Assembly (NCBI RefSeq): GCF_019104765.1
Contig: NZ_JAHRXJ010000011.1
Coordinates: 310,001 to 374,000, forward strand
DNA from: Synechococcus sp. HK05
GTDB lineage: Bacteria > Cyanobacteriota > Cyanobacteriia > PCC-6307 > Cyanobiaceae
Length of the DNA: 64,000 nt
Direction: 5' to 3'
Shown in pieces: positions 337-36,576 of this stretch (its first letter is position 1; every line of letters begins with the position of its first letter). The position numbers were made by a program, and so were the translations under genes. The notes under the pieces are model-generated. The model saw only the letters and a list, made by a program, of their open reading frames with translations, searched no databases and was not told where the DNA came from.

Positions 337-1787
337 GCCGCTAGGGGAAACATGGCGAGGGGGTCTTCGCGATTCTGCAGGCGCCCCCAGAGCCCGTTCA
401 CATCGCCGGCGCCCATGGCCAGCACCAGATCGCCCGGCAAGCTGCGCTGGGCCACGGCATCAGCGAGCTCCTCAAGGCTGTCGGCCACCGTCACGGTTAG
501 CTCCGGCCGCAGCCGCTGAATGGCGGCAGCGAGGGCATGGCTCGAGATGCCGGCGATCGGAGCTTCGCCCGCCGCATAGAGGGGAGCGAGCAGCACCTCA
601 TCGGCCTGGCCGAGGGCGTCGGCGAAGGGCTCGAGGAATTCGGCGGTGCGGCTGTAGCGATGGGGTTGGAACACGGCCAGCACCCGTTGGGGCACCTCCG
701 GCAGGGGGCTGCGTCCGCTGCTCACCATCAACTGGGCCGTGGCGAGGGTGGCGCCCACCTCGCTGGGGTGATGGGCGTAGTCGTCGACCACTTGCCGCTC
801 GGCCCAGGTGCCGCGGTAGTCGAAGCGGCGGCCGGGGGCTTGCAGGCTCTCCACGGCCTGGCGCAGTTCCGCAAACGACACGCCGTGCATCCGGCAGGCC
901 GCCATGGCCGCTGTGGCATTGCTGAGGTTGTGCAGCCCAGGCAGCGGCAGGGTGAAGCGACCCACGCAGTGCCCCTGTTCGTAGAACTCGGCCAGGGTGC
1001 TGTCGCCGCTGAGCTCCACGGGGATGGCGGCGTAATCCACGCCCTCCGCATTGGTGGTGGACCACCAATGGCTGGCGTTGAACTGCTGGCTGAGGATCGG
1101 GCAGTCGCGATTGGCCAGCAGCTGCTCGCAGCCGCGGCCGAAGCGCTGCAGCGTGGCGATCAGGGCCCCCAGATCGGCGTAGTGATCGGTGTGATCCAGC
1201 TCGAGGTTGGTGATCACCCCCAGCCAGGCCTGGAATTTCACCAGGGTGCCGTCGGATTCATCGGCTTCGGCCACCAGCAGCGCGCCCTTGCCGTTGCGGC
1301 CGTTGCTGCCAAAGGCGGGCACCACACCGCCAATCACCGCGGTGGGGTCGTGGTCGGTGGCGTGCAGCAGGCTGGCGATCAGCGTGCTGGTGGTGGTTTT
1401 GCCGTGGCTGCCGGCCACAGCCACGGAGCTCTGGGCCGCGATCATGGCCGCGAGCACATCAGACCTGTGCGCGATCTCGAGCCCGGCCCGCCGCGCTTCC
1501 TGCAGTTCGGGATTGGTGGCGGGGACCGCCGAGCTCACTACCACCAGCGGTTGGGTGGAGGTGCCGCTGCGGATGGCGGCGATGGTGGTGGCGCTCTGTT
1601 CGCGGAACACGCGCACGCCGCGGCTGCGTAGGTCCTGCAGCACGGCGTTGTCGCGGGGGTCGGAGCCGCTCACCGCATAGCCCCGATCCGCCAGGATTCC
1701 TGCAATGGCCGACATGCCGATGCCGCCCACTCCAATGAAATGGAGGGGTTGACGGCGATCGAGCTGTTGGGCCAAGGGCGTCTCCAA
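333..1787 (-). CDS. murC: UDP-N-acetylmuramate--L-alanine ligase
   Basis: Cytoplasmic ATP-dependent ligase that adds L-alanine to UDP-MurNAc, the first amino acid step of peptidoglycan precursor synthesis. At 484 residues it has normal family length. The N-terminal UDP-binding Rossmann motif [13 protein letters not shown] lies at about 17-29, the Mur ligase ATP loop GSHGKTT at about 126-132, and a C-terminal ligase domain includes the DDYAHHPSE signature. The first codon used here is TTG and there is no clear ATG, so the exact N-terminus is uncertain by a few residues. It reads away from gap2 and its stop overlaps the murB start. Confidence 0.97.
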
Positions 1788-1885
1788 GCCTGGGGTGACG
1801 GTAAGCCGGGAGGAAGTTCCCCTTGTCTGCCCGGATCGGTGTGTTTGAGAGGGATTTGAGAGGTTGGATCGCGGCGCTGAGAGCC

Positions 1886-1924
1886 ATGTCCCCAGATGGG
1901 GACATCAATAGATCTCTGTATGAT
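1886..1924 (+). promoter_or_regulatory. gap2 promoter region with a perfect inverted repeat
   Basis: Positions 1886-1905 read ATGTCCCC-AGAT-GGGGACAT, two perfect 8-base arms around a 4-base centre. Fourteen bases further on, TATGAT at 1919-1924 matches the bacterial -10 consensus at five of six positions, and gap2 starts 45 bases after that. The palindrome therefore sits where a -35 element or an operator would be. Seen: the repeat and the hexamer. Inferred: that it is a regulator-binding site rather than an RNA hairpin. The bound protein is unknown. Confidence 0.45.
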
Positions 1925-1969
1925 CGGCGGCCAAATCCCCCTTGCTAGCGGGCTTCCCCGCTCGATGCC

Positions 1970-2992
1970 ATGACCATCAAGGTTGCGATCAATGGATTCG
2001 GCCGTATCGGTCGCAACTTCATGCGTTGCTGGCTCAGCCGTGGTGAGAACACCGGCATCGAGCTGGTGGGCATCAATGGTTCCGGTGACACCAACACCAA
2101 CGCCCACCTGCTGAAGTACGACTCGATGCTGGGCCCTCTGCGCAACGCAGAGGTGACCACCACCGAAGACACGATCGTCGTGAACGGCAAGACGATCAAA
2201 ACCTTCTACGACCGCAACCCCGCCAACCTCCCCTGGAAGGAGTGGGGCGTGGATCTGGTGATCGAGTCCACCGGCGTGTTCAACGATGACGTGGGCGCCA
2301 GCAAGCACTTCGAGGCCGGTGCCAAGAAAGTGATCCTCACCGCTCCTGGCAAGGGCGCCAAGGTGGGCACCTTCGTGGTGGGCGTGAACGCCGACCAATA
2401 CCGCCACGAGGATTGGGACATCCTCTCCAACGCCAGCTGCACCACCAACTGCATGGCGCCGATCGTGAAAACGATCGACCAGGCCTTCGGCATCGTGAAA
2501 GGCACGATGACCACTACCCACAGCTACACGGGTGACCAGCGCATCCTCGATGCCGCTCACCGCGACCTGCGCCGCGCCCGCGCCGCCGCAGTGAACATCG
2601 TGCCCACCAGCACCGGCGCCGCCAAGGCTGTGGCTCTGGTGTACCCCGAGGTGAAGGGCAAGCTGAGCGGTATCGCTCTGCGCGTGCCCACCCCCAACGT
2701 GTCGGTGTGCGACATGGTGTTCGAGACCGGCCGCGACACCACCGCTGAGGAAGTGAATGCCGTGCTCAAGGCCGCGTCCGAGAACGGCATGAAGGGGATC
2801 ATCAAGTACTGCGATCTGCCCCTGGTGTCGAGCGATCACGCCGGTACCGATGAGAGCACCATCGTTGACGCCGATCTCACCCTGGTGATGGGCGGCAACA
2901 TGGTGAAGATCGTTTGCTGGTACGACAACGAGTGGGGCTACAGCCAGCGCGTGGTCGACCTCGCCGAGATCGTGGCCAAGAACTGGAAGTGA
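1970..2992 (+). CDS. gap2: Glyceraldehyde-3-phosphate dehydrogenase, Gap2 (Calvin cycle) type
   Basis: Interconverts 1,3-bisphosphoglycerate and glyceraldehyde-3-phosphate. The cyanobacterial Gap2 class works in the Calvin cycle and gluconeogenesis with NADPH or NADH. The 340-residue protein has the Rossmann start [10 protein letters not shown] (about 8-17), the active-site segment SNASCTTNC with catalytic Cys157, and the C-terminal WYDNEWGYS signature. Assignment to Gap2 rather than catabolic Gap1 rests on the overall sequence and the cyanobacterial setting. It is divergent from murC, has its own promoter-like region with a palindrome upstream, and is followed by a strong terminator, so it looks monocistronic. 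Confidence 0.93.
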
Positions 2993-3037
2993 GTTCGGTT
3001 GCAGCCCCGGGCTAATCGGCCTGGGCTCATCCGCTTC

Positions 3038-3063
3038 AGCCGCCCCTTCAAGGGCGGCTTTTT
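3038..3063 (+). terminator. Rho-independent terminator of gap2
   Basis: Stem AGCCGCCC pairs perfectly with GGGCGGCT across a 6-base loop and runs directly into a T tract. It lies 46 bases after the gap2 stop and before the 3' end of the convergent thiL gene. Confidence 0.85.
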
Positions 3064-3108
3064 CGTGCTTGGCTTGGGTGTGGGTTGGTAGCCACCCTGG
3101 TTGGCAAC

Positions 3109-4092
3109 TCAGCGGAAATGCGTAAACCCTTGTTCCGCTGCCGCAAGCGCTTCGCCGCTCTCTTGCCAGCGCACCAGGCCGGGCTCTGCCTCTACAAGGC
3201 TGCCGATGCGGCTGGTGCCAGGTAAGGCCGCCAGCAGCGCCTCGGCCCAGCTGGGCGGCAGCGCCAGCACCAGCTCGAAATCTTCACCGCCCCCCAGGCA
3301 CCAGTGCTCGCCGGCCGTGAGCTGAGCCAGTTCGGGCTCGATCGGCAGCTGGCTGCGCCCCAGCACAGCCCCGCAGCCACTGGTAGCGGCAATCGCCTTC
3401 ACGGCGGCCGCCAGGCCATCGCTGCTGTCGGTGCCGCCCACGCGCCAGGGCCGGCCCGTTGGGCGGCTGCGGTGCAGGGCCTGCACCACATCCAGGCGCG
3501 GTTGGGGGCGGCGGTGGGCCTGGATCGCCCGTTGCTGCAGCTCTGGGCTCACCTGGGCGGCCTCCGGCTCATCCAGCAGCAGGGCCAGCCCCAGGCGGCT
3601 GAGGCCATGGGGGCCGCTGCTGATCAGCCAGTCGCCCGGGCGCCCGTCGCCCCGGCGGATCGCTGTGCCGTTGGCCACACGCCCCAGGGCTGTGATCGAG
3701 AGCAGCCGCTGGCTGCCGCTGCTGCAATCGCCGCCGAGCAGCTGGCCGCCGTAGCGCGTGAGCGCTGCCCTGAAGCCGTCGTAGACGCCCTCCACCCAGC
3801 TCCAGGGGGTCTCTCCTGGAGCCACCAGGGCCACCGTGATCCCCGCCACGCTGGTGCAGCCCATGGCGGCGAGATCGGAGAGGTTGGCGGCGGCAGCTCG
3901 CCAGCCCAGGTCTTGGGGTCCGATGGTGGCGTCGCTGAAGTGCACGCCCTCCACGAGCACATCGGTGTTCACCACCAGCTGGCGGCCGTCCTGCTCGTTC
4001 AGCAGGGCGGCGTCGTCATCAAATTGACCGGGCGGCGCATAGGCGGAGAGGCGCCGCAGCAGCTCCCACTCGCCCAGGTCGCGCAGGTGCAC
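3109..4092 (-). CDS. thiL: Thiamine-monophosphate kinase
   Basis: ATP-dependent kinase that converts thiamine monophosphate to thiamine diphosphate, the last step of cofactor synthesis. The protein shows the ThiL pattern: DLGEWELLRRL near the start, then DDDAALL, the metal-binding segment VNTDVLVEGVHF, NLSDLAAMG, and GGEDFELVLALP toward the C-terminus. I chose the GTG that gives MHLRDLGEWELL because it lies 5 bases after the upstream stop. A TTG 39 bases further upstream would overlap the cyclophilin gene. It follows the cyclophilin gene closely and is probably co-transcribed with it. Confidence 0.92.
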   Translation of the reverse strand: MHLRDLGEWELLRRLSAYAPPGQFDDDAALLNEQDGRQLVVNTDVLVEGVHFSDATIGPQDLGWRAAAANLSDLAAMGCTSVAGITVALVAPGETPWSWVEGVYDGFRAALTRYGGQLLGGDCSSGSQRLLSITALGRVANGTAIRRGDGRPGDWLISSGPHGLSRLGLALLLDEPEAAQVSPELQQRAIQAHRRPQPRLDVVQALHRSRPTGRPWRVGGTDSSDGLAAAVKAIAATSGCGAVLGRSQLPIEPELAQLTAGEHWCLGGGEDFELVLALPPSWAEALLAALPGTSRIGSLVEAEPGLVRWQESGEALAAAEQGFTHFR

Positions 4093-27678: not shown

Positions 27679-29034
27679 ATGGCCGCCGGGGGCACAGCCA
27701 CAGGAGCCCGCCGACTGCAGGCCTCGCTGTTTCTGATCGGTTGTTGTCTGGCCGGAGGGTTGCCCCACGCCCTGCCGGCCTCACGGAGCCTCTGGCCCTC
27801 TCTGGCGCTCACCTTGATCCTGGGCACCTATGCGGTGCGCAGCGTGTTTCTGCCCCGATGGCGCGGGGCGGGTGCGGTGGTGGAGAGCCCGGATCCGGCG
27901 GCCTGGCCGGCCGTGGATTTGGTAGTGGCGGCGCGCGATGAAGAGGCGGTGATCGGTCGCCTGGTGGAACGGCTCGCCGATCTGAAGTATCCCCCTGAGC
28001 AGCTGCGCCTCTGGGTGATCGACGACGGCAGCGAAGACCGCACCCCCGAGGTGCTCGAGACCTATCAACGCCGTTACCCCCAGTTGCAGGTGCTGCGCCG
28101 CAGCCGCGATGCCGGCGGCGGGAAATCAGGCGCGCTGAATGCCTTGTTGCCCCAATTGCAGGGCCGCTGGCTGTTGGTGCTCGATGCCGATGCCCAGTTG
28201 CAGCCCGATGGCCTGCAGCGTCTGGTGGCGTTCGCCGAGGCGGGCGGTTGGTCGGCTGTGCAGCTGCGCAAAGCCGTGGTGAATGCCGACCAGAACTGGC
28301 TCACCCGCGCCCAAGCCATGGAGATGGCCCTGGATGCGGTGATTCAACAGGGGCGGTTGCACAGCGGTGGCGTGGTGGAGTTGCGCGGCAACGGCCAGCT
28401 GTTGCAGCGCCAGGCCGTGCTCGCCTGTGATGGCTTCAACGAAGCCACGGTCACCGACGATCTCGATCTCAGCTTTCGCCTGCTGGTGCAAGGCCAGCCG
28501 GTGGGCTTGCTCTGGGATCCGCCGATTCAGGAGGAGGCCGTGACCAGCCTGATGGGCCTCTGGCGCCAGCGCCAACGTTGGGCTGAGGGTGGTTTGCAGC
28601 GCTTCTTCGATTACTGGGGCCCGCTCACCGGTGAGGCCACGAGCGGGGCCCGCAAACTCGATCTCAGCGGCTTTTTTCTGCTGCAGTACGCCTTGCCGGT
28701 GATGGCTGTGGCGGATCTGGCCACGAGCCTGCTCAGCCGCAGCACGCCGTTGATGTGGCCGCTGTCGTTTGTGGCCTTCGGCCTCTCGGGCGGCGCCATC
28801 CTGGTGGGCTGCTCGCGCACCAATGAAGGGCCTGCGCTGCCTCGCATGCATCCCCTCAATCTCGCCCTGGGCATTGCCTATCTGGGCCACTGGTTCGTGG
28901 TGATCCCTTACACCACCTTGCGGATGGCGCTGCTGCCGAAGCGGCTGGTGTGGGCCAAAACCCTGCATGTGGGTGCCGGCCACGACCAGACCCCGGGAAG
29001 CGAGGAGGCGGATCTCACCACCCAGGTGCTCTGA
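27679..29034 (+). CDS. mgdA: Membrane glycosyltransferase family 2, likely monoglucosyldiacylglycerol synthase
   Basis: Predicted to transfer glucose from UDP-glucose to diacylglycerol, the first step of cyanobacterial galactolipid synthesis. The 451-residue protein has two N-terminal membrane helices (about 12-55), a GT-A domain with DLVVAARDEE, VIDDGSEDRT, VLDADAQL (DxD), VTDDLDLSFRL and QRQRWAEGG (QxxRW), then membrane helices near the C-terminus. This layout matches Sll1377 of Synechocystis. A different glycolipid or polysaccharide acceptor is possible. It starts 24 bases after the SpoIID-like gene. Confidence 0.8.
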   Translation: MAAGGTATGARRLQASLFLIGCCLAGGLPHALPASRSLWPSLALTLILGTYAVRSVFLPRWRGAGAVVESPDPAAWPAVDLVVAARDEEAVIGRLVERLADLKYPPEQLRLWVIDDGSEDRTPEVLETYQRRYPQLQVLRRSRDAGGGKSGALNALLPQLQGRWLLVLDADAQLQPDGLQRLVAFAEAGGWSAVQLRKAVVNADQNWLTRAQAMEMALDAVIQQGRLHSGGVVELRGNGQLLQRQAVLACDGFNEATVTDDLDLSFRLLVQGQPVGLLWDPPIQEEAVTSLMGLWRQRQRWAEGGLQRFFDYWGPLTGEATSGARKLDLSGFFLLQYALPVMAVADLATSLLSRSTPLMWPLSFVAFGLSGGAILVGCSRTNEGPALPRMHPLNLALGIAYLGHWFVVIPYTTLRMALLPKRLVWAKTLHVGAGHDQTPGSEEADLTTQVL

Positions 29035-29049
29035 CCCTCCTAATCGGGA

Positions 29050-30918
29050 TCAGGCCGCCTGGCTGCTGCCGTTGCTGTCGTCGAGCTCGGGTAAGGGGCC
29101 ATCGAGCTGCACCACTTCGCCGTTGAAGAAGTCGGCGAGGCGCTTGGCCTGATCGTCGATCAGGGCTGGTTGTGCCTGGGGTGTGGTGGCGACCGGTGGT
29201 GGTGCTGCCGCTGGCGTTGGTTCGGCCGGTGGCGCTACGGGTTGGGGCGGCTCTGCCACCGGAGCTGGCGCAGCGGCGCGCTGGGGCTCGGCTGCGGCAG
29301 CACGCGGGGGCTCGGGCGCTGGGGAACTTGCTACGGCGACAGGCTGTGGTGGAGCTGCTGCGATCGGGGCCTGCGCTGGTGCTGCTGGGGCCTGCGGCGG
29401 TGGCGGTGCACCGCCGGCTTCGAGCATGACCTGGCGGGGGCTGCCCAGGGCTGAGGCCACCGCCTTCTCCAGCAGGGGCAAGCGGCTTTGCACCATGGCC
29501 ATCCAGTTGCCGGCCACCTGCACCACCGCGCGCTGTTGATCCAGGCGGGCCAACACGGCCTGCTGCGAGAGCAACATGCGCGTGGAGGGCAGCTCCAGGC
29601 CCGCCAGGATCTGTTGCCAGAGCTCCACCAAATCGGTGCCGGCTGAGGGCGCGGCTGGCGCGGGAGCGGCGGGTTCTGGTTCGGGCGGCGCCGCTGGTGC
29701 GGTGGGAGCTGGCGCAGCAGCGACAGCCGGGATTGGAACGACCGGTGCTGAGGGAGCCGGTGCAGCCACAGGTGCTGGGGCTGGGGCTTGAGCTGGTCCG
29801 GCGGCGGCGGTGCGGGCTTGTTGGGGTTCGGCGAGCAGGCCCAGCACCAGCACCTCCAGCCACAGGCGCGGTTGCACGCTCTGGCGCAGCTGCTGTTCGC
29901 TGCCCTTCAGTTGGGCCTGCCAACGCAGCAGCGGCGCTTTGCCGATGCGCCGTGCCAGATCGGGCAGGCCGCTGCGGAACTGGGGCGAAAAGCTGCTGAG
30001 TTCAAGTCGGTCGGGGGCCACGCCCGCCAGCACCAGATCCCGCAGCAAGCCGGCCAGCCCCTGCAGCACCGCTGAGGGTTCACGGCCACGCTCCAATAGG
30101 GTGCGGATCGCTTCGATCAGCCCGAGGGGTTCACCGGCTGCCAGGGATTCCGCCAGCTGCAGCAGTTCCTGTTCGGGCACCGCGCCCAGCAGCTCCCACA
30201 CCGCCTGGGGTTCCACCGGCGGCGGCAGCAGGCTGAGCTGATCGAGAAGGCTTTCAGCGTCGCGTAGGCCGCCCTGGGCCCGCTGGGCCACTACATGCAG
30301 GGCTTCAGCGGTGATGCCGATCTGCTCCTGCTCGGCAATCCAGCCCAGATGCCGTTCCAGGGCATCGAGGGGAATGCGGCGGAAATCAAAGCGCTGGCAG
30401 CGGCTCAGGATCGTGGGCAGCACCCGCTGGGGGTCGGTGGTGGCCAGCACGAACACCACCCGCGGCGGCGGCTCCTCCAGCGTTTTGAGCAGGGCGTTGA
30501 AGGCCGCCGTGGAGAGCATGTGGCACTCGTCCACCACATACACCTTCCAGCGGGCTTGCACCGGCGCAAAGCGGGAGCGCTCGATCAGCTCGCGGATGTT
30601 GTCAACGCCGGTGTTGGAGGCGGCGTCGATCTCGATCACATCGAGGGCGTTGCCGTTCGCGATCGAGGTGCAGAGCTCACAGGTGCCGCAGGGCTCCGGC
30701 GTGGGGCCATCGGAGCCGATGCAGTTGAGTGAGCGCGCCAGGATGCGGGCGCTCGACGTTTTGCCCGTGCCGCGTGGGCCGCTGAAGAGGTAGGCCGGCG
30801 CGATCCGCCCTGAGCGCAGCGCATTGCCGAGGGTGGCCGCGATCGCCTCCTGCCCCACCAGCTGATCGAAGCGCTGCGGGCGGTACTTGTGGTGGAGGGG
30901 TTGGTAGGCAGCCGGCAT
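29050..30918 (-). CDS. dnaX: DNA polymerase III subunit gamma/tau
   Basis: Clamp-loader ATPase of the replicase. The 622 residues comprise an AAA+ domain with Walker A GPRGTGKTSSAR (about 43-54), a zinc-binding CGTCELC region, Walker B VDECHM, sensor 1 ATTDPQRV and the collar domain to about residue 360. A long Pro/Ala-rich low-complexity linker follows (about 370-600) with a short acidic end. There is no intein, unlike Synechocystis dnaX, and I see no A-tract slippage site for a gamma frameshift. It is the last gene of the tig-clpP-clpX block, 10 bases after the LRAT-domain gene. Confidence 0.96.
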   Translation of the reverse strand: MPAAYQPLHHKYRPQRFDQLVGQEAIAATLGNALRSGRIAPAYLFSGPRGTGKTSSARILARSLNCIGSDGPTPEPCGTCELCTSIANGNALDVIEIDAASNTGVDNIRELIERSRFAPVQARWKVYVVDECHMLSTAAFNALLKTLEEPPPRVVFVLATTDPQRVLPTILSRCQRFDFRRIPLDALERHLGWIAEQEQIGITAEALHVVAQRAQGGLRDAESLLDQLSLLPPPVEPQAVWELLGAVPEQELLQLAESLAAGEPLGLIEAIRTLLERGREPSAVLQGLAGLLRDLVLAGVAPDRLELSSFSPQFRSGLPDLARRIGKAPLLRWQAQLKGSEQQLRQSVQPRLWLEVLVLGLLAEPQQARTAAAGPAQAPAPAPVAAPAPSAPVVPIPAVAAAPAPTAPAAPPEPEPAAPAPAAPSAGTDLVELWQQILAGLELPSTRMLLSQQAVLARLDQQRAVVQVAGNWMAMVQSRLPLLEKAVASALGSPRQVMLEAGGAPPPPQAPAAPAQAPIAAAPPQPVAVASSPAPEPPRAAAAEPQRAAAPAPVAEPPQPVAPPAEPTPAAAPPPVATTPQAQPALIDDQAKRLADFFNGEVVQLDGPLPELDDSNGSSQAA

Positions 30919-30927
30919 GGCTGGAGG

Positions 30928-31599
30928 CTACTGGCCGTGCTCGAGCATGCGCTCCAGCCGGCCTTCCAGTTCCTCCACTTCGCTGAGCTGATCCGCCAGC
31001 TTCTGGGCGGCCAGCCGCAGTGTTTCAAAGCCTGGGCTCTGCGCCTCGCCCGGACTCCAGCGTTGCTCCGCCTTGGCGAGTTCGAGCTCGAGCCGCTGCT
31101 GCAGCTTCAGCCGCAGGCCATCGAGTTGTTCGATGCTGCGCCGCGCGAGGGCCTTGCCCTGCTCGAGCTGCGCATCGTTGAGCCGCAGACCCTGCCGCAA
31201 CAGCATCCGTGCGCCGCTGAGCACGGCGGCCGGCATGAACTGGCCGAGGGCCAGGGCCCCCAGGCTGCCGGTGTGCAGCCAGTTCTCCACTTGCTCGCTG
31301 CGGTGCCGGCCGGTTTTGCACCAGTGGGCGAAGTGCTCGCAGTTGTTGAACAGCAGGTTGTAGTTCTGCTCCCCGAGGCGGCCCATGGCTCGGCGCAGGG
31401 TCACCCCCGGCGCCGAGCAGCTGCCCTCGGGGTAGGCCACCACGCTCAGGGGCTGGCCGCGGCTGAACTCCTCCACGGGGCTGCGCAGGATCTCCCGCCC
31501 CTCGAGGTAGTGGGCCACGGTGCCGTCGCCCAGATCGATGCCGTGGTGGTTGAACAGGCCGTGCTGGCGCGGCACCTGCAGGTGATCAGCAACGGCCAT
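30928..31599 (-). CDS. LRAT/NC-domain protein with C-terminal coiled coil
   Basis: The 223-residue protein has an N-terminal LRAT-like (NlpC/P60-related) fold: catalytic His in NHHGIDLGDGTVAHYLE (about 17-33) and catalytic Cys87 in NNCEHFAHWC. A helical part follows (LRQGLRLNDAQLEQGKAL) and a C-terminal coiled coil (KLADQLSEVEELEGRLER). LRAT-type proteins are thiol acyltransferases or phospholipases, and the bacterial substrate is unknown. It sits 12 bases after clpX and 10 before dnaX, an unexpected position within a protease/replication block. I saw no signal peptide; the region near residues 105-120 is only mildly hydrophobic. Confidence 0.8.
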   Translation of the reverse strand: MAVADHLQVPRQHGLFNHHGIDLGDGTVAHYLEGREILRSPVEEFSRGQPLSVVAYPEGSCSAPGVTLRRAMGRLGEQNYNLLFNNCEHFAHWCKTGRHRSEQVENWLHTGSLGALALGQFMPAAVLSGARMLLRQGLRLNDAQLEQGKALARRSIEQLDGLRLKLQQRLELELAKAEQRWSPGEAQSPGFETLRLAAQKLADQLSEVEELEGRLERMLEHGQ

Positions 31600-31611
31600 G
31601 GCCGCCCGCGC

Positions 31612-32964
31612 TCAGGCGGTTTCCTGCTGCACGGCTTCGTTGCCTGGCAGAGGCAGCACCTTGGCTTTTGTGCGCTCCTCCACCAGCTCGCGGGTCACGG
31701 TGAAGGCCTTGGTGCTCTTGTCGGATGGCAGGTCGTACATCAGATCGAGCATCAGCTCCTCCACGATCCCCCGCAGGGCGCGGGCGCCGGTTTTGCGGCG
31801 ATGGGCTTCGGCGGCGATCGCCTCCACGGCGCCGGGCTCAAAGTCGAGGCGCACCTCATCCATGCTCAGCAGCGTCTGGAACTGCTTCACCAGGGCATCG
31901 CGCGGTTCGGTGAGGATCGCTTCGAGAGCGCGGTTATCGAGCGGTTCGAGCACGGCGCTCACCGGCAGGCGGCCGATGAACTCGGGGATCAGGCCGTACT
32001 TCACCAGGTCGTCGGGCTCCAGGTGGCGCAGTACGTGGGCGGCCTGTTGATCCTTGGCCTGGCGGCTGCGGCCGCGGCCCGCCTCCGGGATGAAGCCGAT
32101 GGAATTGCGGCCCATGCGCCGTTGCACCACATCCTCTAGGCCCACGAACGCACCGCCGCAGATGAACAGGATCTGGCTGGTGTCGATCTGGATGCAGTCT
32201 TGATAGGGGTGCTTGCGGCCGCCCTGGGGAGGCACGTTGGCCACGGTGCCTTCCAGCAGCTTCAGCAGTGCCTGCTGCACCCCTTCGCCCGATACATCGC
32301 GGGTGATGGAGGGGTTCTCGCTCTTGCGGGCGATCTTGTCGATCTCGTCGATGTAGATGATGCCCCGCTGGGCCTGATCCACATCCAGATCGGCTTTCTG
32401 CAGCAGCCGCAGCAGGATGTTTTCCACGTCCTCGCCCACGTAACCCGCTTCGGTGAGGGTGGTGGCATCGGCCACGGCGAAAGGTACATCCAGCAGCTCC
32501 GCCAGGGTTTGGGCCAGGAGTGTTTTGCCGCAGCCCGTGGGGCCGATCAGCATGATGTTGCTCTTGTGCAGGCGCGTGGCGGTTTCGTTGCTCTCGCCCT
32601 TGCCATCGCCCTGCCAGGCCAGGCGTTTGTAGTGGTTGTAGACGGCCACCGAGAGCACCTTCTTGGCCTCCTCTTGCCCCACCACCTGGGCATCGAGGTG
32701 GGCTTTGATCTCCCGCGGTTTGGGGATCTCGGCGAGGGTGGGGGCAGGCTTGCTGCTCTTCTTGGCCGGTGCCTTGCCTTTGGCTTCGGCGGGTTGGCGG
32801 GCGCCGCCGCCATGGCCCTCCACGAGTTCCTCATCCAGGATCTCGTTGCAGAGGTCGATGCACTCGTCGCAGATGTACACGCCCGGCCCGGCGATCAGCT
32901 TGCGCACCTGGTCCTGCGACTTGCCGCAGAACGAGCACTTCAGGTGGGCATCGAACTTGGGCAT
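31612..32964 (-). CDS. clpX: ATP-dependent Clp protease ATP-binding subunit ClpX
   Basis: AAA+ unfoldase that feeds substrates to ClpP. The 450-residue protein has the N-terminal zinc domain [10 protein letters not shown]...CDECIDLC (about 10-45), Walker A GPTGCGKT (about 138-145), Walker [10 protein letters not shown], the pore GYVGED motif, and the C-terminal small AAA domain. Cys4 zinc ligands and all AAA motifs are intact. It follows clpP by 103 bases. Confidence 0.98.
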
Positions 32965-33067
32965 CGAGCAGAAGCGGCGGTGCGGCGGGAGCGTCCTGGC
33001 TGGGGCGGGTCAGGGGCCCGAAACCAGGATCAACGGGATCCCGCGTTTCGTCAGCCGTCCTTAAGGA

Positions 33068-33688
33068 TCAAACCGGGGCGTCGTCGGTGACGACGCGGTC
33101 GATCAGTCCGTATTGAACCGCTTCCGCCGGGGAAAGGAAGTAGTCGCGGTCGGTGTCTTCAGCGATCTTCTCGAGGGGCTGGCCGGTGTGCTCGGCCATC
33201 AACCCGTTGAGGGTGTCTTTGAGATAGAGGATCTCCTTGGCCTGGATCTCGATGTCCACCGCCTGACCCTGGGCGCCGCCGAGGGGCTGGTGGATCATGA
33301 TCCGGGCATTCGGCAGAGCCAGCCGCTTGCCTTTGGTGCCGCCGGAGAGGAGGAAGGCGCCCATGGAGGCGGCCAGGCCATAACAGATGGTCACCACATC
33401 CGGCGCCACCTGCTGCATGGTGTCGTAGATCGCCAGGCCGGACGTCACCGAGCCCCCCGGTGAGTTGATGTAGATCTGAATGTCCTTCTCGGGATCTTCG
33501 GCCTCAAGGAAGAGCAGCTGGGCCACCATCGCATCGGCGACCTGGTCGTCGATGCCGGTGCCCAGGAAGATGATGCGCTCGCGCAGCAGGCGCGAATAAA
33601 TGTCGAAGGCCCGCTCCCCTCGGCCCGATTGCTCCACAACCGTGGGGAGCACGCCCGGAGCCGCCACCGGGGCTGTTGCGCTGCCCAT
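33068..33688 (-). CDS. clpP: ATP-dependent Clp protease proteolytic subunit
   Basis: Serine protease of the Clp complex. It begins [20 protein letters not shown] and has the catalytic triad: Ser in [12 protein letters not shown], His in [10 protein letters not shown], and Asp in [15 protein letters not shown]. The chosen ATG gives 206 residues. An upstream GTG would add 24. Cyanobacteria carry several ClpP/R paralogs. Its place between tig and clpX marks this as the ClpX partner, often called ClpP2. Confidence 0.96.
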
Positions 33689-33798
33689 GGCGATGGTGGC
33701 TTCCGGGCGGGTGCCCAGCCAGCGGTTCTGGATCGGATGGGGGGTGCTGGCGTTGATCACGCGGCCGGACTGTTGTCAGTCCGGCCAATCTATGGGGA

Positions 33799-35235
33799 TC
33801 AGGCTTCGGCAGCGGGCTCGGCGTCGGCCTCAGCCTTGGCCTTCTTGGCGGTGCTCTTCTTGGCAGCGGCCTTCTTGGGCTTGTCGCCCTCGGTTTCCGG
33901 GGCCTTCTCGGTGATGGTGGAGTTGCTCTCCAGCCAACCCATCAGCTTTTCGCGCATCAGGTCTTCCTGCACGGCCTGGCGCAGGCGGGCGGGATCGATG
34001 CGGGAGTTGTCGCTGAAGCCGCGGCTGAGCTCCTTCACCTTGGCTTCGATCTCATCGGCGGCCACCTCGATCTTCTCGGCGGTGGCGAGGGCCTTGAGGG
34101 CCAGGCTCCGCTTGAGGCGCTCTTCGGCCTCGGGGCGGGAGGTTTCGCGCAGGCTCTGGATCAGCTGCGGGGTGAACAGCTTCTTCACGTCCATCCCTTG
34201 CTGGGCGAGCTGACCGGCGGTCTGCTCGAGCAGCGAGATGATCTCCTCCTGCACGAGGGTTTCGGGCAGTTCCACCTCGAGCTGCTCCACCAGGGCCGCC
34301 AGCAGTGCGTCGTGGCGGTTCGATTCGTTGCGGCGCTCGGCGTCGTCCTTGAGGCGCTCCTCCAGATCGGCGCGCAGTTCCGCCAGGGTCTGCTTGTCGC
34401 TGGCCTGCTGGGCGAAGGCGTCGTCGAGGGCGGGCAGCTCGCGGGTTTTCAGCTCGGTGAGGGTGATCTCAAAGCTGGCCTTGCGACCGGCGGCGTCCTC
34501 CTGGGGGTACTCCTCAGGGAACTGGCAAGCCACGGTTTTGCTGTCGCCGGGCTTCATGCCAAGGATGCCCTCCACGAAGCCGGGGATCATGCGGCCGTCT
34601 TCCAGCTCCACTTCCATCGCATCAGCGCTGCCGCCGCTGATGGCTTCGCCGTTATCGACATAGGTGCCGCTGAAGTTGATCACGGCCACATCACCGCTTT
34701 CGGCGGCGCGCTTCTCCACCGGCACCAGGGTGGCCAGCTGACGGCGGGATTGTTCGATCAGCTCATCCACGCGGGCAGCATCGAAGCTCACGGCTTCGGC
34801 TTCGGCCTTGAGGCCCTTGGTGCTCTTGAGGCTGGGGGTGGGTTCCACATCCATCTCAAGGGTGAGGCTCAGCTCCTTGCCGGGTTCAAAACGCTCGAGC
34901 AGCGCTTCAAAGCCGCCATCCACGCTGGGCTGGCCGATCGCGGGGATCTCGGCCTGCTTGAGGGCATTGCGGAACACGCTGTCCACCAGCTCTTCGAGGG
35001 CGGTGGCCCGGATCCGGGCAGCGCCGATCTGCTGCACCAGCACGGCGCGGGGCACCTTGCCTTTGCGGAAGCCGGGCAGCTTGATGGTGCGGCTCAGCTT
35101 CTCCACAGCCTGCTCATGGCTGGTTTGGGTGAGGCCTGCGGGAACACCGATCTCCACCGCCATTCGGCTGCCGGGGCGAGGGCTGGTGCTCACCTTGAGC
35201 TCGGATTGGCTGGCTTTGGCGGCGGCAGGACTCAT
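33799..35235 (-). CDS. tig: Trigger factor
   Basis: Ribosome-bound chaperone and prolyl isomerase. The 478 residues have a ribosome-binding domain with the [12 protein letters not shown] signature (about 56-67), an FKBP-like domain (about 175-255, with [14 protein letters not shown]), and a long helical arm. The C-terminus carries a Lys/Ala-rich tail ([15 protein letters not shown]). The first 20 residues are a non-conserved extension. An internal ATG ([10 protein letters not shown]) is an alternative start. It is first in the tig-clpP-clpX order and divergent from asd. Confidence 0.96.
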
Positions 35236-35499
35236 GGATCAGCGTCTAGGCAGCCCACGATCCTAGGAACTGACGTGTGACAGCCCCTCAGGCTGAGTCG
35301 CCAGCCCTGCGTTGGGCACGTATTGTTGGCAGCAAGAACAGCGACCTGAAGATCCCTTAGCGAAAGCCCGACGGGCTTCCGCACAGCATTTGGCAGACGG
35401 CAACCGCCCTGTGGCACGCGCCTGATTGGGTTGCTCCGGCTCCACGTTCTTCTTGTTTCAGCGACATCTCTGCACCTGAACCACGCTCCTGAATCTCCC
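35236..35499. other. Longest intergenic region of the window, between tig and asd
   Basis: This 264-base gap between divergent genes should hold both promoters and both leaders. I see a compact hairpin AAGCCC-GAC-GGGCTT at 35364-35378 and no convincing -35/-10 pair or tRNA. Open frames inside it have no recognisable protein character. A small RNA is possible but has no positive support beyond the hairpin. Confidence 0.3.
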
Positions 35500-36576
35500 T
35501 TGACCAGCTCCATTCGCCCCCTGCCTCAGCGCCCTCTGCATGTCGCCGTTCTCGGTGCCAGCGGTGCCGTAGGTCAGGAGCTGTTGCTGCTGTTGGCCGA
35601 GCGTCAGTTCCCGGTGGGGCGGCTCACGTTGTTGGCCTCGCCTCGTTCGGCTGGTCAGACCGTGGAGTGGAACGGTCAGACCCTCACGATCGAGCCTGTG
35701 AGCGCTGATGCGTTCCACGGCGTTGATGTGGTGTTGGCGTCGGCCGGTGGCTCGGTGTCGAAGCAGTGGGCTCCGGTGGCTGCCGCCGCGGGTGCCGTGG
35801 TGATCGATAACTCCAGCGCCTTCCGCATGGATGCGGCGGTGCCGCTGGTGGTGCCCGAGGTGAATCCCCGCGCCGCCTTTGCCCACAACGGTGTGATCGC
35901 CAACCCCAACTGCACCACAATCCTGATGACGCTGGCCCTGGCGCCACTGGCGGCGAAGCGGCCGCTGCGCAGGGTGGTGGTGAGCACCTATCAATCCGCC
36001 AGTGGCGCCGGCGCCCGGGCCATGGAGGAGTTGGCCAGCCTCAGCCGCACCGTGCTTGATGGCGGCACGCCCGAAAGCAGTGTGCTGCCCTATTCCCTGG
36101 CGTTCAATCTGTTTCTCCACAACTCGCCGCTTCAGGACAACGGCTATTGCGAGGAGGAGCTGAAGATGCTCAATGAAACCCGCAAGATCATGGGACTGCC
36201 CGATCTGCGCGTGTCGGCCACTTGTGTGCGGGTGCCGGTGCTGCGGGCCCATTCCGAAGCGATCAACATCGAGTTTGAGGAGCCGTTCCCGGTGGAGGAG
36301 GCTCGGACCCTGCTGGCCGCGGCCCCTGGCGTGGAGCTGATTGAAGACTTCAGCGCCAACCGTTTCCCGATGCCCACGGATGTGACCGGCCGCGATGCGG
36401 TGGCCGTGGGCCGGATCCGCCAGGACCTCAGCGAGCCCAATGCGCTTGAGATCTGGCTCTGCGGTGATCAGATCCGCAAGGGCGCTGCCCTCAATGCCAT
36501 TCAAATCGCCGAGCTGTTGCTGGATCCCGCAGCGGCCGCGGCCGCCGGTGCGGCGACGGCAGGGGCGGTGGCTTGA
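35500..36576 (+). CDS. asd: Aspartate-semialdehyde dehydrogenase
   Basis: Makes aspartate semialdehyde for lysine/diaminopimelate, methionine and threonine synthesis. Motifs are [15 protein letters not shown] (NADP site), NPNCTTI with catalytic Cys138, [10 protein letters not shown], and the active-site histidine in [12 protein letters not shown]. About 358 residues. No ATG precedes the Rossmann motif in frame. I used the TTG giving [10 protein letters not shown], with another TTG 69 bases upstream. Its stop overlaps a TTG of dapA, and the pathway order asd-dapA fits an operon. Confidence 0.93.

Follow-up and report, generated by a model that had tools for sequence, protein, structure and literature searches.

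The window analysed here is a 64,000-nucleotide stretch of Synechococcus sp. HK05, and it carries a run of genes in the order tig-clpP-clpX-LRAT-dnaX, all on one strand:

29050..30918, minus strand: dnaX, downstream neighbour of the LRAT gene (NCBIfam equivalog NF011510, 837.8 bits, over cut-off)
30928..31599, minus strand: LRAT-domain gene, 223 aa (ATG-start open reading frame; PF04970, 81.4 bits; purifying selection)
31612..32964, minus strand: clpX, upstream neighbour of the LRAT gene (NCBIfam equivalog TIGR00382, 651.6 bits, over cut-off)
33068..33760, minus strand: clpP, upstream in the run (TIGR00493, 341.8 bits)
33799..35235, minus strand: tig (trigger factor), upstream in the run (TIGR00115, 392.7 bits)

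The LRAT gene is separated from clpX by 12 bases, as the original prediction had it, and from dnaX by 9 bases according to the open reading frame coordinates, rather than the 10 first given. Judged from codon substitutions, the frame at 30928-31599 is a real gene, because dN lies well below dS in 9/9 pairwise comparisons, with dN/dS ratios spanning roughly 0.03-0.22 over the LRAT part and 0.02-0.33 over the C-terminal part. A search of positions 28900-35500 returned no sigma-70-type promoter and only 2 sites resembling terminators, where shuffles gave 4.4 on average, so it says little about transcription. The genome search found a single LRAT match in this organism, and among the best 80 of 540 named loci the closest proteins are 99% (Cyanobacteria bacterium M_surface_7_m2_037 MAG) and 96% identical (Vulcanococcus sp. 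MAG).

The N-terminal half of the encoded protein holds the catalytic domain and its candidate active-site residues:

31303..31593, minus strand: LRAT (permuted NlpC/P60) domain, residues 3-99 (Pfam; AlphaFold2 model against HRASLS3)
31546..31548, minus strand: His18 codon, aligned with HRASLS2 chain position 23 (phmmer; invariant in alignment)
31510..31512, minus strand: His30 codon, aligned with HRASLS2 chain position 35 (phmmer; invariant in alignment)
31339..31341, minus strand: Cys87 codon, presumed nucleophile in an NCEHF motif, aligned with HRASLS2 chain position 113 (phmmer; invariant)

The PF04970 LRAT match covers residues 3-99 at 81.4 bits against a cut-off of 24.3, and neither another Pfam family nor an NCBIfam model matched the protein at E<=0.01. 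Searched with phmmer against human HRASLS2, the protein gave a best whole-sequence E of 0.0043, a comparison in which the stretch holding H18 and H30 is not significant by itself. The permuted triad H18, H30 and C87 is identical in 104/104 family proteins and 45/45 proteins from outside the picocyanobacterial family, as are Y80, N86, E88 and F90 in all 149 aligned proteins; L001 (a copy of the window protein), L150 (a broken frame of 62 codons) and L152 (a late start, with the first His missing) were omitted from this alignment.

An AlphaFold2 model built on the window protein together with 49 relatives reaches a mean pLDDT of 72.1, with values of 81-96 per ten-residue block across the first 80 residues. 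Residues 1-99 of the model matched crystal structures of HRASLS2, HRASLS3/PLAAT3 and PLAAT4 with Z scores of 12.9-13.4, including HRASLS3 (4dot) at Z 13.4 and 2.4 Å over 97 residues, and matched two NMR models at Z 10.9-11.3. The first five Foldseek rows (E 1.6e-5 to 9.6e-5) all belong to the PLAAT/HRASLS family, and the top structural match of the domain is 8iuf_E7, a chain of a Euglena respiratory supercomplex (Z 13.8, 3.7 Å). The Pfam score, the invariance of the catalytic Cys and His residues and the likeness of the model to human PLAAT/HRASLS enzymes all bear out the original description of an LRAT-type Cys/His protein with an intact active site.

The C-terminal half is less readily assigned and contains two features:

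31198..31263, minus strand: moderately hydrophobic segment, residues 113-134, possible membrane contact (hydropathy)
30937..31176, minus strand: two long helices, residues 142-180 and 189-221, a putative PspA/Vipp1 hairpin remnant (AlphaFold2; weak profile similarity; tree)

The segment at 113-134 has the highest 19-residue hydropathy of the C-terminal part (1.36), and the AlphaFold2 model falls below pLDDT 50 at residues 111-125, within part of this segment. The two helices, modelled with moderate confidence, agree with the coiled coil claimed from the sequence at first sight. What that first reading missed is the kinship of the protein to LRAT-PspA/Vipp1 fusion proteins. The window protein itself gave no match to PF04012 (PspA_IM30) at E<=0.01, and a profile of the family C-termini did not match a set of 12 Vipp1/PspA proteins (probability 0.2).

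The kinship emerged from relatives outside the family. In a phylum-wide sample, 75/292 genomes matched LRAT, with 20 of the 75 rows coming from the family. Among the 45 outside relatives, 38 carry PF04012 behind the LRAT domain at E<=1e-3, in a search that does not name its 38. Ten proteins were also checked singly against the PF04012 cut-off of 33.9: L050 (48.3 bits), L036, L139, L143 and L038 exceeded it, L135 (33.4) and L060 (27.9) fell short of it, and no match was obtained for L141, L146 or L003, a member of the family. The seven outside proteins lacking PF04012 are taken to be L141, L144, L146-L149 and L151; L151 is short, and the others have Gly/Ala-rich or hydrophobic C-termini. L141, L144, L146, L147, L148 and L149 form a second class of cyanobacterial LRAT proteins. 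A profile of 27 outside PspA-type C-termini aligned with the 12 Vipp1/PspA proteins at a probability of 98.6 (E 7.4e-16), spanning 71 columns at 41% identity and positions 52-122 of the Vipp1/PspA profile, and retrieved Vipp1/PspA chains in the PDB from E 1.1e-10.

LRAT relatives are also encoded at 17 viral-collection loci, none of which has a clpX or dnaX match. One of these contigs, L273, encodes an LRAT protein at 150-842 whose C-terminus looks PspA-like by eye, followed about 800 bases downstream by a same-strand open reading frame at 1646-3388 with a GHSLGGALA lipase-like motif, likewise seen by eye; L273 may be a chromosomal fragment. Vipp1/PspA was absent among the 50 matches listed for the L273 model, the alignment behind which held no other PspA-type row. 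The LRAT-domain frames on the viral-collection contigs L274-L289 include several (L280, L282-L287 and others) in which, by eye, a long insert separates the second His from the NCEHF motif.

Comparison of the family C-termini with the PspA-type C-termini outside the family yielded a weak match (hhalign probability 17.3, E 0.0014, 85 columns), with a gap around the hairpin tip. In an HMM test of 38 PspA-type C-termini picked by eye, 16/38 scored above the 95th percentile of heptad-preserving shuffles, against an expectation of about 2; 2/38 exceeded the maximum of 760 such shuffles (10.5 bits), and 1/38 was clearly above the highest plain shuffle (10.8). L143 scored 8.9 and L139 5.0, and neither the six hydrophobic C-termini nor the 12 Vipp1/PspA proteins stood out. 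Since the 38 C-termini are mutually related, we treat this test as support and not as proof. Structural comparison of the helices with ESCRT-III proteins was set aside: the CHMP4B hairpin (Z 11.4, rank 8; Foldseek E 1.4) scored within 1 Z unit of unrelated helical proteins, and CHMP2A-CHMP3 reached Z 11.3, with unrelated coiled coils next at 10.7.

To place the family among LRAT proteins, a tree was built by a quick method from the window protein, 35 randomly chosen proteins of the other 103 in the family and all 45 outside proteins, using 103 columns, SH-aLRT support and midpoint rooting. The family forms one group (99*) that joins L139 (87) and then L143 (90), these joining branches being unstarred. 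The family, L139, L143 and 36 other PspA-type rows lie on one side of a starred branch (95*), across which fall the 7 rows without PspA. Both L139 and L143 have a PspA match together with a hydrophobic segment. Because the tree places the family with L139, L143 and the PspA-type rows, an LRAT-PspA protein is the most likely ancestor of the window protein, which would have lost the recognisable hairpin sequence. Homology of the C-terminal part is suggested by this 103-column tree, with its unstarred joining branches, and by weak profile scores, and the helices would then be a worn-down PspA hairpin. Given how weak the profile matches are, it is possible that an unrelated coiled coil took the place of the hairpin in the window family.

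As to what the enzyme might act on, cyanobacterial membranes contain MGDG, DGDG, SQDG and PG. The S1 pocket of permuted NlpC/P60 enzymes is hydrophobic, and these enzymes have been linked to lipids or to lipidated proteins (accessible parts of PMC3142127 and PMC10318531); a bacterial permuted member cleaves PG and PE (accessible part of PMC12994826). These associations, the role of LnsA in lipoprotein acylation described below and the cyanobacterial lipid set lead us to predict that the protein is probably a phospholipase A or lipid acyltransferase that associates with membranes and uses PG or a glycolipid as its substrate. Within the open-licence literature, we found no reported activity for any cyanobacterial member. 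The 36 family genomes without the LRAT gene discussed below count against the predicted lipid enzyme, in that these cells dispense with the gene.

Under a different assignment, proteins or lipoamino acids rather than glycerolipids would be the substrates of the thiol hydrolase or acyltransferase, making it, for instance, a lipoprotein or N-acyl-amino-acid amidase or a PPPDE-like peptidase. PF05903 (Peptidase_C97) also matches 5/45 outside relatives (best E 0.00021), YiiX has been proposed to be a lipid-peptide or lipoamino-acid amidase (accessible part of PMC3142127), and LnsA, a permuted NlpC/P60 enzyme of S. aureus, is required for lipoprotein N-acylation (accessible part of PMC7387801). Set against these points, the protein resembles LRAT/PLAAT members in its NCEHF motif and its best structural matches, and, as read from its sequence, it shows no start resembling a signal peptide; we consider such a function unlikely.

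The place of the gene between clpX and dnaX was examined in relatives. A sample of the family contained an LRAT match in 103/151 genomes, or 70/95 among those at least 90% complete, and in 103/103 of the LRAT-bearing genomes clpX and dnaX flank the gene on the same strand, so the position is conserved across the family. Distances between hit ends at these loci have medians of 22 (clpX) and 56 bases (dnaX) and maxima of 522 and 374; the 522-base distance belongs to L115, where the clpX frame is broken. At this locus (G054) clpX lies in two overlapping pieces, covering profile positions 1-231 and 228-410, with the LRAT frame open, and the clpX frame is either truly broken or misassembled. A second set, consisting of the best 80 of 540 named loci, represents close relatives whose organisms overlap the first set. 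Here clpX is upstream on the same strand at 79/79 loci with upstream sequence (within 700 bases at 75), and dnaX is downstream on the same strand at 73/78 loci with downstream sequence (within 700 bases at 66). The remaining five, L200, L202, L213, L224 and L256, keep clpX and have other open reading frames in place of a dnaX match within 3 kb downstream.

Outside the family the arrangement differs: with flanks of about 1.5-3 kb or to the contig end, clpX occurs beside 1/47 LRAT loci, namely L139. The question of whether the gene sits elsewhere in relatives thus has a divided answer, yes outside the family (1/47 near clpX) and no within it (103/103). L133 and L153, which have weak PF04970 matches, gave no tblastn LRAT match and do not enter the synteny counts. 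Because clpX accompanies 1/47 outside loci, the clpX link is confined, in these samples and by gene order, to the family and its nearest LRAT relative. At L139 the order is clpP, clpX, an alpha/beta hydrolase (PF00561, 95.5 bits) and LRAT, with no dnaX match; in this genome (G186, L139:2172-5070), clpX and the hydrolase overlap by 4 bases and the LRAT-PspA gene follows 23 bases on, all on one strand. No common neighbour gene was seen among 44 outside loci except GntR-like upstream frames in 5 (L046, L052, L053, L135 and L138, assigned by eye from the N-terminal residues). At L042 the flank includes a match to clpP on the opposite strand.

The LRAT match is absent from 48/151 family genomes, and in 36/48 of these clpX and dnaX stand side by side without it. 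At the 27 LRAT-lacking loci that were read, clpX and dnaX are same-strand neighbours, 10-230 bases apart by hit ends in 26, with no LRAT similarity at E<=1e-3. At the locus L178 (G107; 2082-2991), a prepilin-like open reading frame with a GFTLVELL motif, recognised by eye, fills a 910-base gap between clpX and dnaX. Coordinates alone place the two genes next to each other without LRAT in G114, G116, G117, G130, G133, G135, G136, G146 and G149. The other 12 LRAT-lacking genomes have no clpX and/or dnaX match, or have the two on separate contigs, and were left out of the adjacency count.

On a tree of ClpX and DnaX comprising 104 bearers (103 from the family sample and G413 from the phylum sample), 27 of the 48 lackers and L139 as outgroup, the presence or absence of LRAT needs 5 changes, compared with a mean of 24.9 when states are shuffled, and at least 4 changes are forced by starred branches. 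The natural reading of these changes is loss, because the outgroup L139 bears the gene. The largest LRAT-lacking group comprises 17 rows, and its members that are 99-100% complete have genomes of 1.6-1.9 Mb. L258 (Prochlorococcus MIT 0701) carries the LRAT gene, as does L259 (Synechococcus WH7803), and a control search gave an LRAT match in a laboratory strain of S. elongatus.

These data speak to the proteolysis tie that the original prediction offered, beside a simply compact genome, for the position of the gene. On such a view the protein might serve ClpX(P) in the role of adaptor, substrate or regulator. The constant place of clpX upstream on the same strand, at all 103 family loci and at the 79 of 80 named loci with upstream sequence, fits such a partnership, as do the one-strand order clpP-clpX-alpha/beta hydrolase-LRAT at L139, the nearest outside relative in the LRAT tree, and the five named loci that keep clpX while dnaX is missing within 3 kb downstream. 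RpaA is also reported to regulate clpX directly in S. elongatus (accessible part of PMC9239245). The gene is not kept wherever clpX is kept, however, as the 36 LRAT-lacking family genomes with clpX beside dnaX attest; its state changes 5 times on the ClpX+DnaX tree, and across cyanobacteria no general LRAT-clpX linkage was seen (1/47 outside loci). Co-occurrence and synteny therefore do not support a ClpX or proteolysis link, and from gene order and distribution we consider a working partnership with ClpX(P) quite improbable. The clpX and dnaX neighbours look like inherited order rather than functional partners.

Two further observations concern clpX and dnaX themselves. All 8/8 sampled genomes of family code f11 (G189, G249, G277, G302, G333, G340, G385 and G391) have two clpX matches, the second copy having, where listed, a longer frame of 462-465 codons. 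In some Cyanobacteriia (G189, G198 and G241 among them) the best dnaX match has an E near 1e-62 to 1e-65, against about 1e-130 in others, a difference for which a split or intein-bearing dnaX may account.

It is very improbable that the protein lacks a catalytic role and serves as a membrane or scaffold component, with its triad retained for structure: the top domain match to the Euglena supercomplex chain (8iuf_E7) indicates that such folds can be complex subunits, but a triad identical in 149/149 proteins along with N86, E88 and F90 is unexpected in a dead enzyme.

Returning to the lipid enzyme that we favour, the gene product would be a cytoplasmic, membrane-associated enzyme of the LRAT/PLAAT type. 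Cys87, activated by His18 and His30, would accept an acyl chain from a glycerolipid of the membrane, forming a thioester, and hand it on to water or another acceptor, so acting as a phospholipase A or an acyltransferase on the cell's own membranes. Its ancestor would be a cyanobacterial LRAT-PspA fusion whose PspA/Vipp1 hairpin could plausibly anchor the enzyme to membranes or to Vipp1/PspA polymers. In the picocyanobacterial form the conserved hairpin tip would be gone and a hydrophobic segment would lie ahead of the helices. Docking of the LRAT protein on this genome's own PspA_IM30 product is possible, since a full PspA_IM30 gene is present elsewhere in the genome (G000:C9:166670-167308, 210.8 bits). 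The slot between clpX and dnaX would represent inherited gene order, with co-expression with the clp genes at most. A bolder version, which we think distinctly unlikely, has a lipid-editing enzyme on a Vipp1/PspA (ESCRT-III-type) hairpin riding Vipp1/PspA assemblies and cutting or transferring acyl chains where thylakoid or plasma membrane is bent or repaired. Picocyanobacteria would then have trimmed the hairpin and put the gene under clp control, coupling the switching of lipid editing to that of protein quality control, and the lineages streamlined furthest would have dropped the gene.

The fusion of an LRAT-type domain to PspA is itself already in print, as the accessible part of PMC11237479 attests. 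Most likely, and going by sequence comparison, the LRAT gene that picocyanobacteria carry in the clpX-dnaX interval is a derived form of that known fusion; among the papers listed from the open-licence literature, we found none on this gene and none that describes it in this way. In the picocyanobacterial family, where most of the sampled genomes carry it, the gene thereby gains a testable function as a PLAAT-like lipid enzyme, and its relatives join such an enzyme to the hairpin of Vipp1, the thylakoid-membrane maintenance protein, which offers a genetic handle on whether lipid editing couples to Vipp1/PspA assemblies. The locus also illustrates that a conserved slot beside clpX can be inherited order, because the gene appears to have been lost several times while clpX and dnaX stayed joined.

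Among known systems, the nearest are the PspA_IM30-NlpC/P60 fusions, e.g. AFZ52345.1, predicted to modify phosphatidylcholine (Ravi et al. 2024, accessible part of PMC11237479). The likeness lies in the combination of LRAT with PF04012 in the outside relatives, with which AFZ52345.1 would presumably share a family. Unlike these fusions, the window protein has no recognisable PspA domain and shows a gap where the hairpin tip would be; it also carries a hydrophobic segment, and its gene belongs to the tig-clpP-clpX-dnaX run. Vipp1/IM30 and PspA resemble the C-termini of the outside relatives over profile positions 52-122, which is part of the PspA domain, whereas they have no detectable match in the window family. 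YiiX, LnsA and Tox-Act1 share a permuted Cys/His core that has been linked to lipids or fatty acids (accessible parts of PMC3142127, PMC7387801 and PMC12994826) but belong to other subfamilies than the window protein; the same sources describe a predicted signal peptide in LnsA and secretion of Tox-Act1 by a T6SS. Among the 50 matches listed for each model, YiiX (2if6_B) appeared for L273 only, at Z 8.6 and 6.4 Å. Human PLAAT/HRASLS enzymes share the fold of the catalytic domain, the aligned His, His and Cys and the NCEHF motif, at about 22% identity over the domain. Human members of that family end in a transmembrane helix, whereas the window protein carries a hydrophobic segment and two long helices at its C-terminus.
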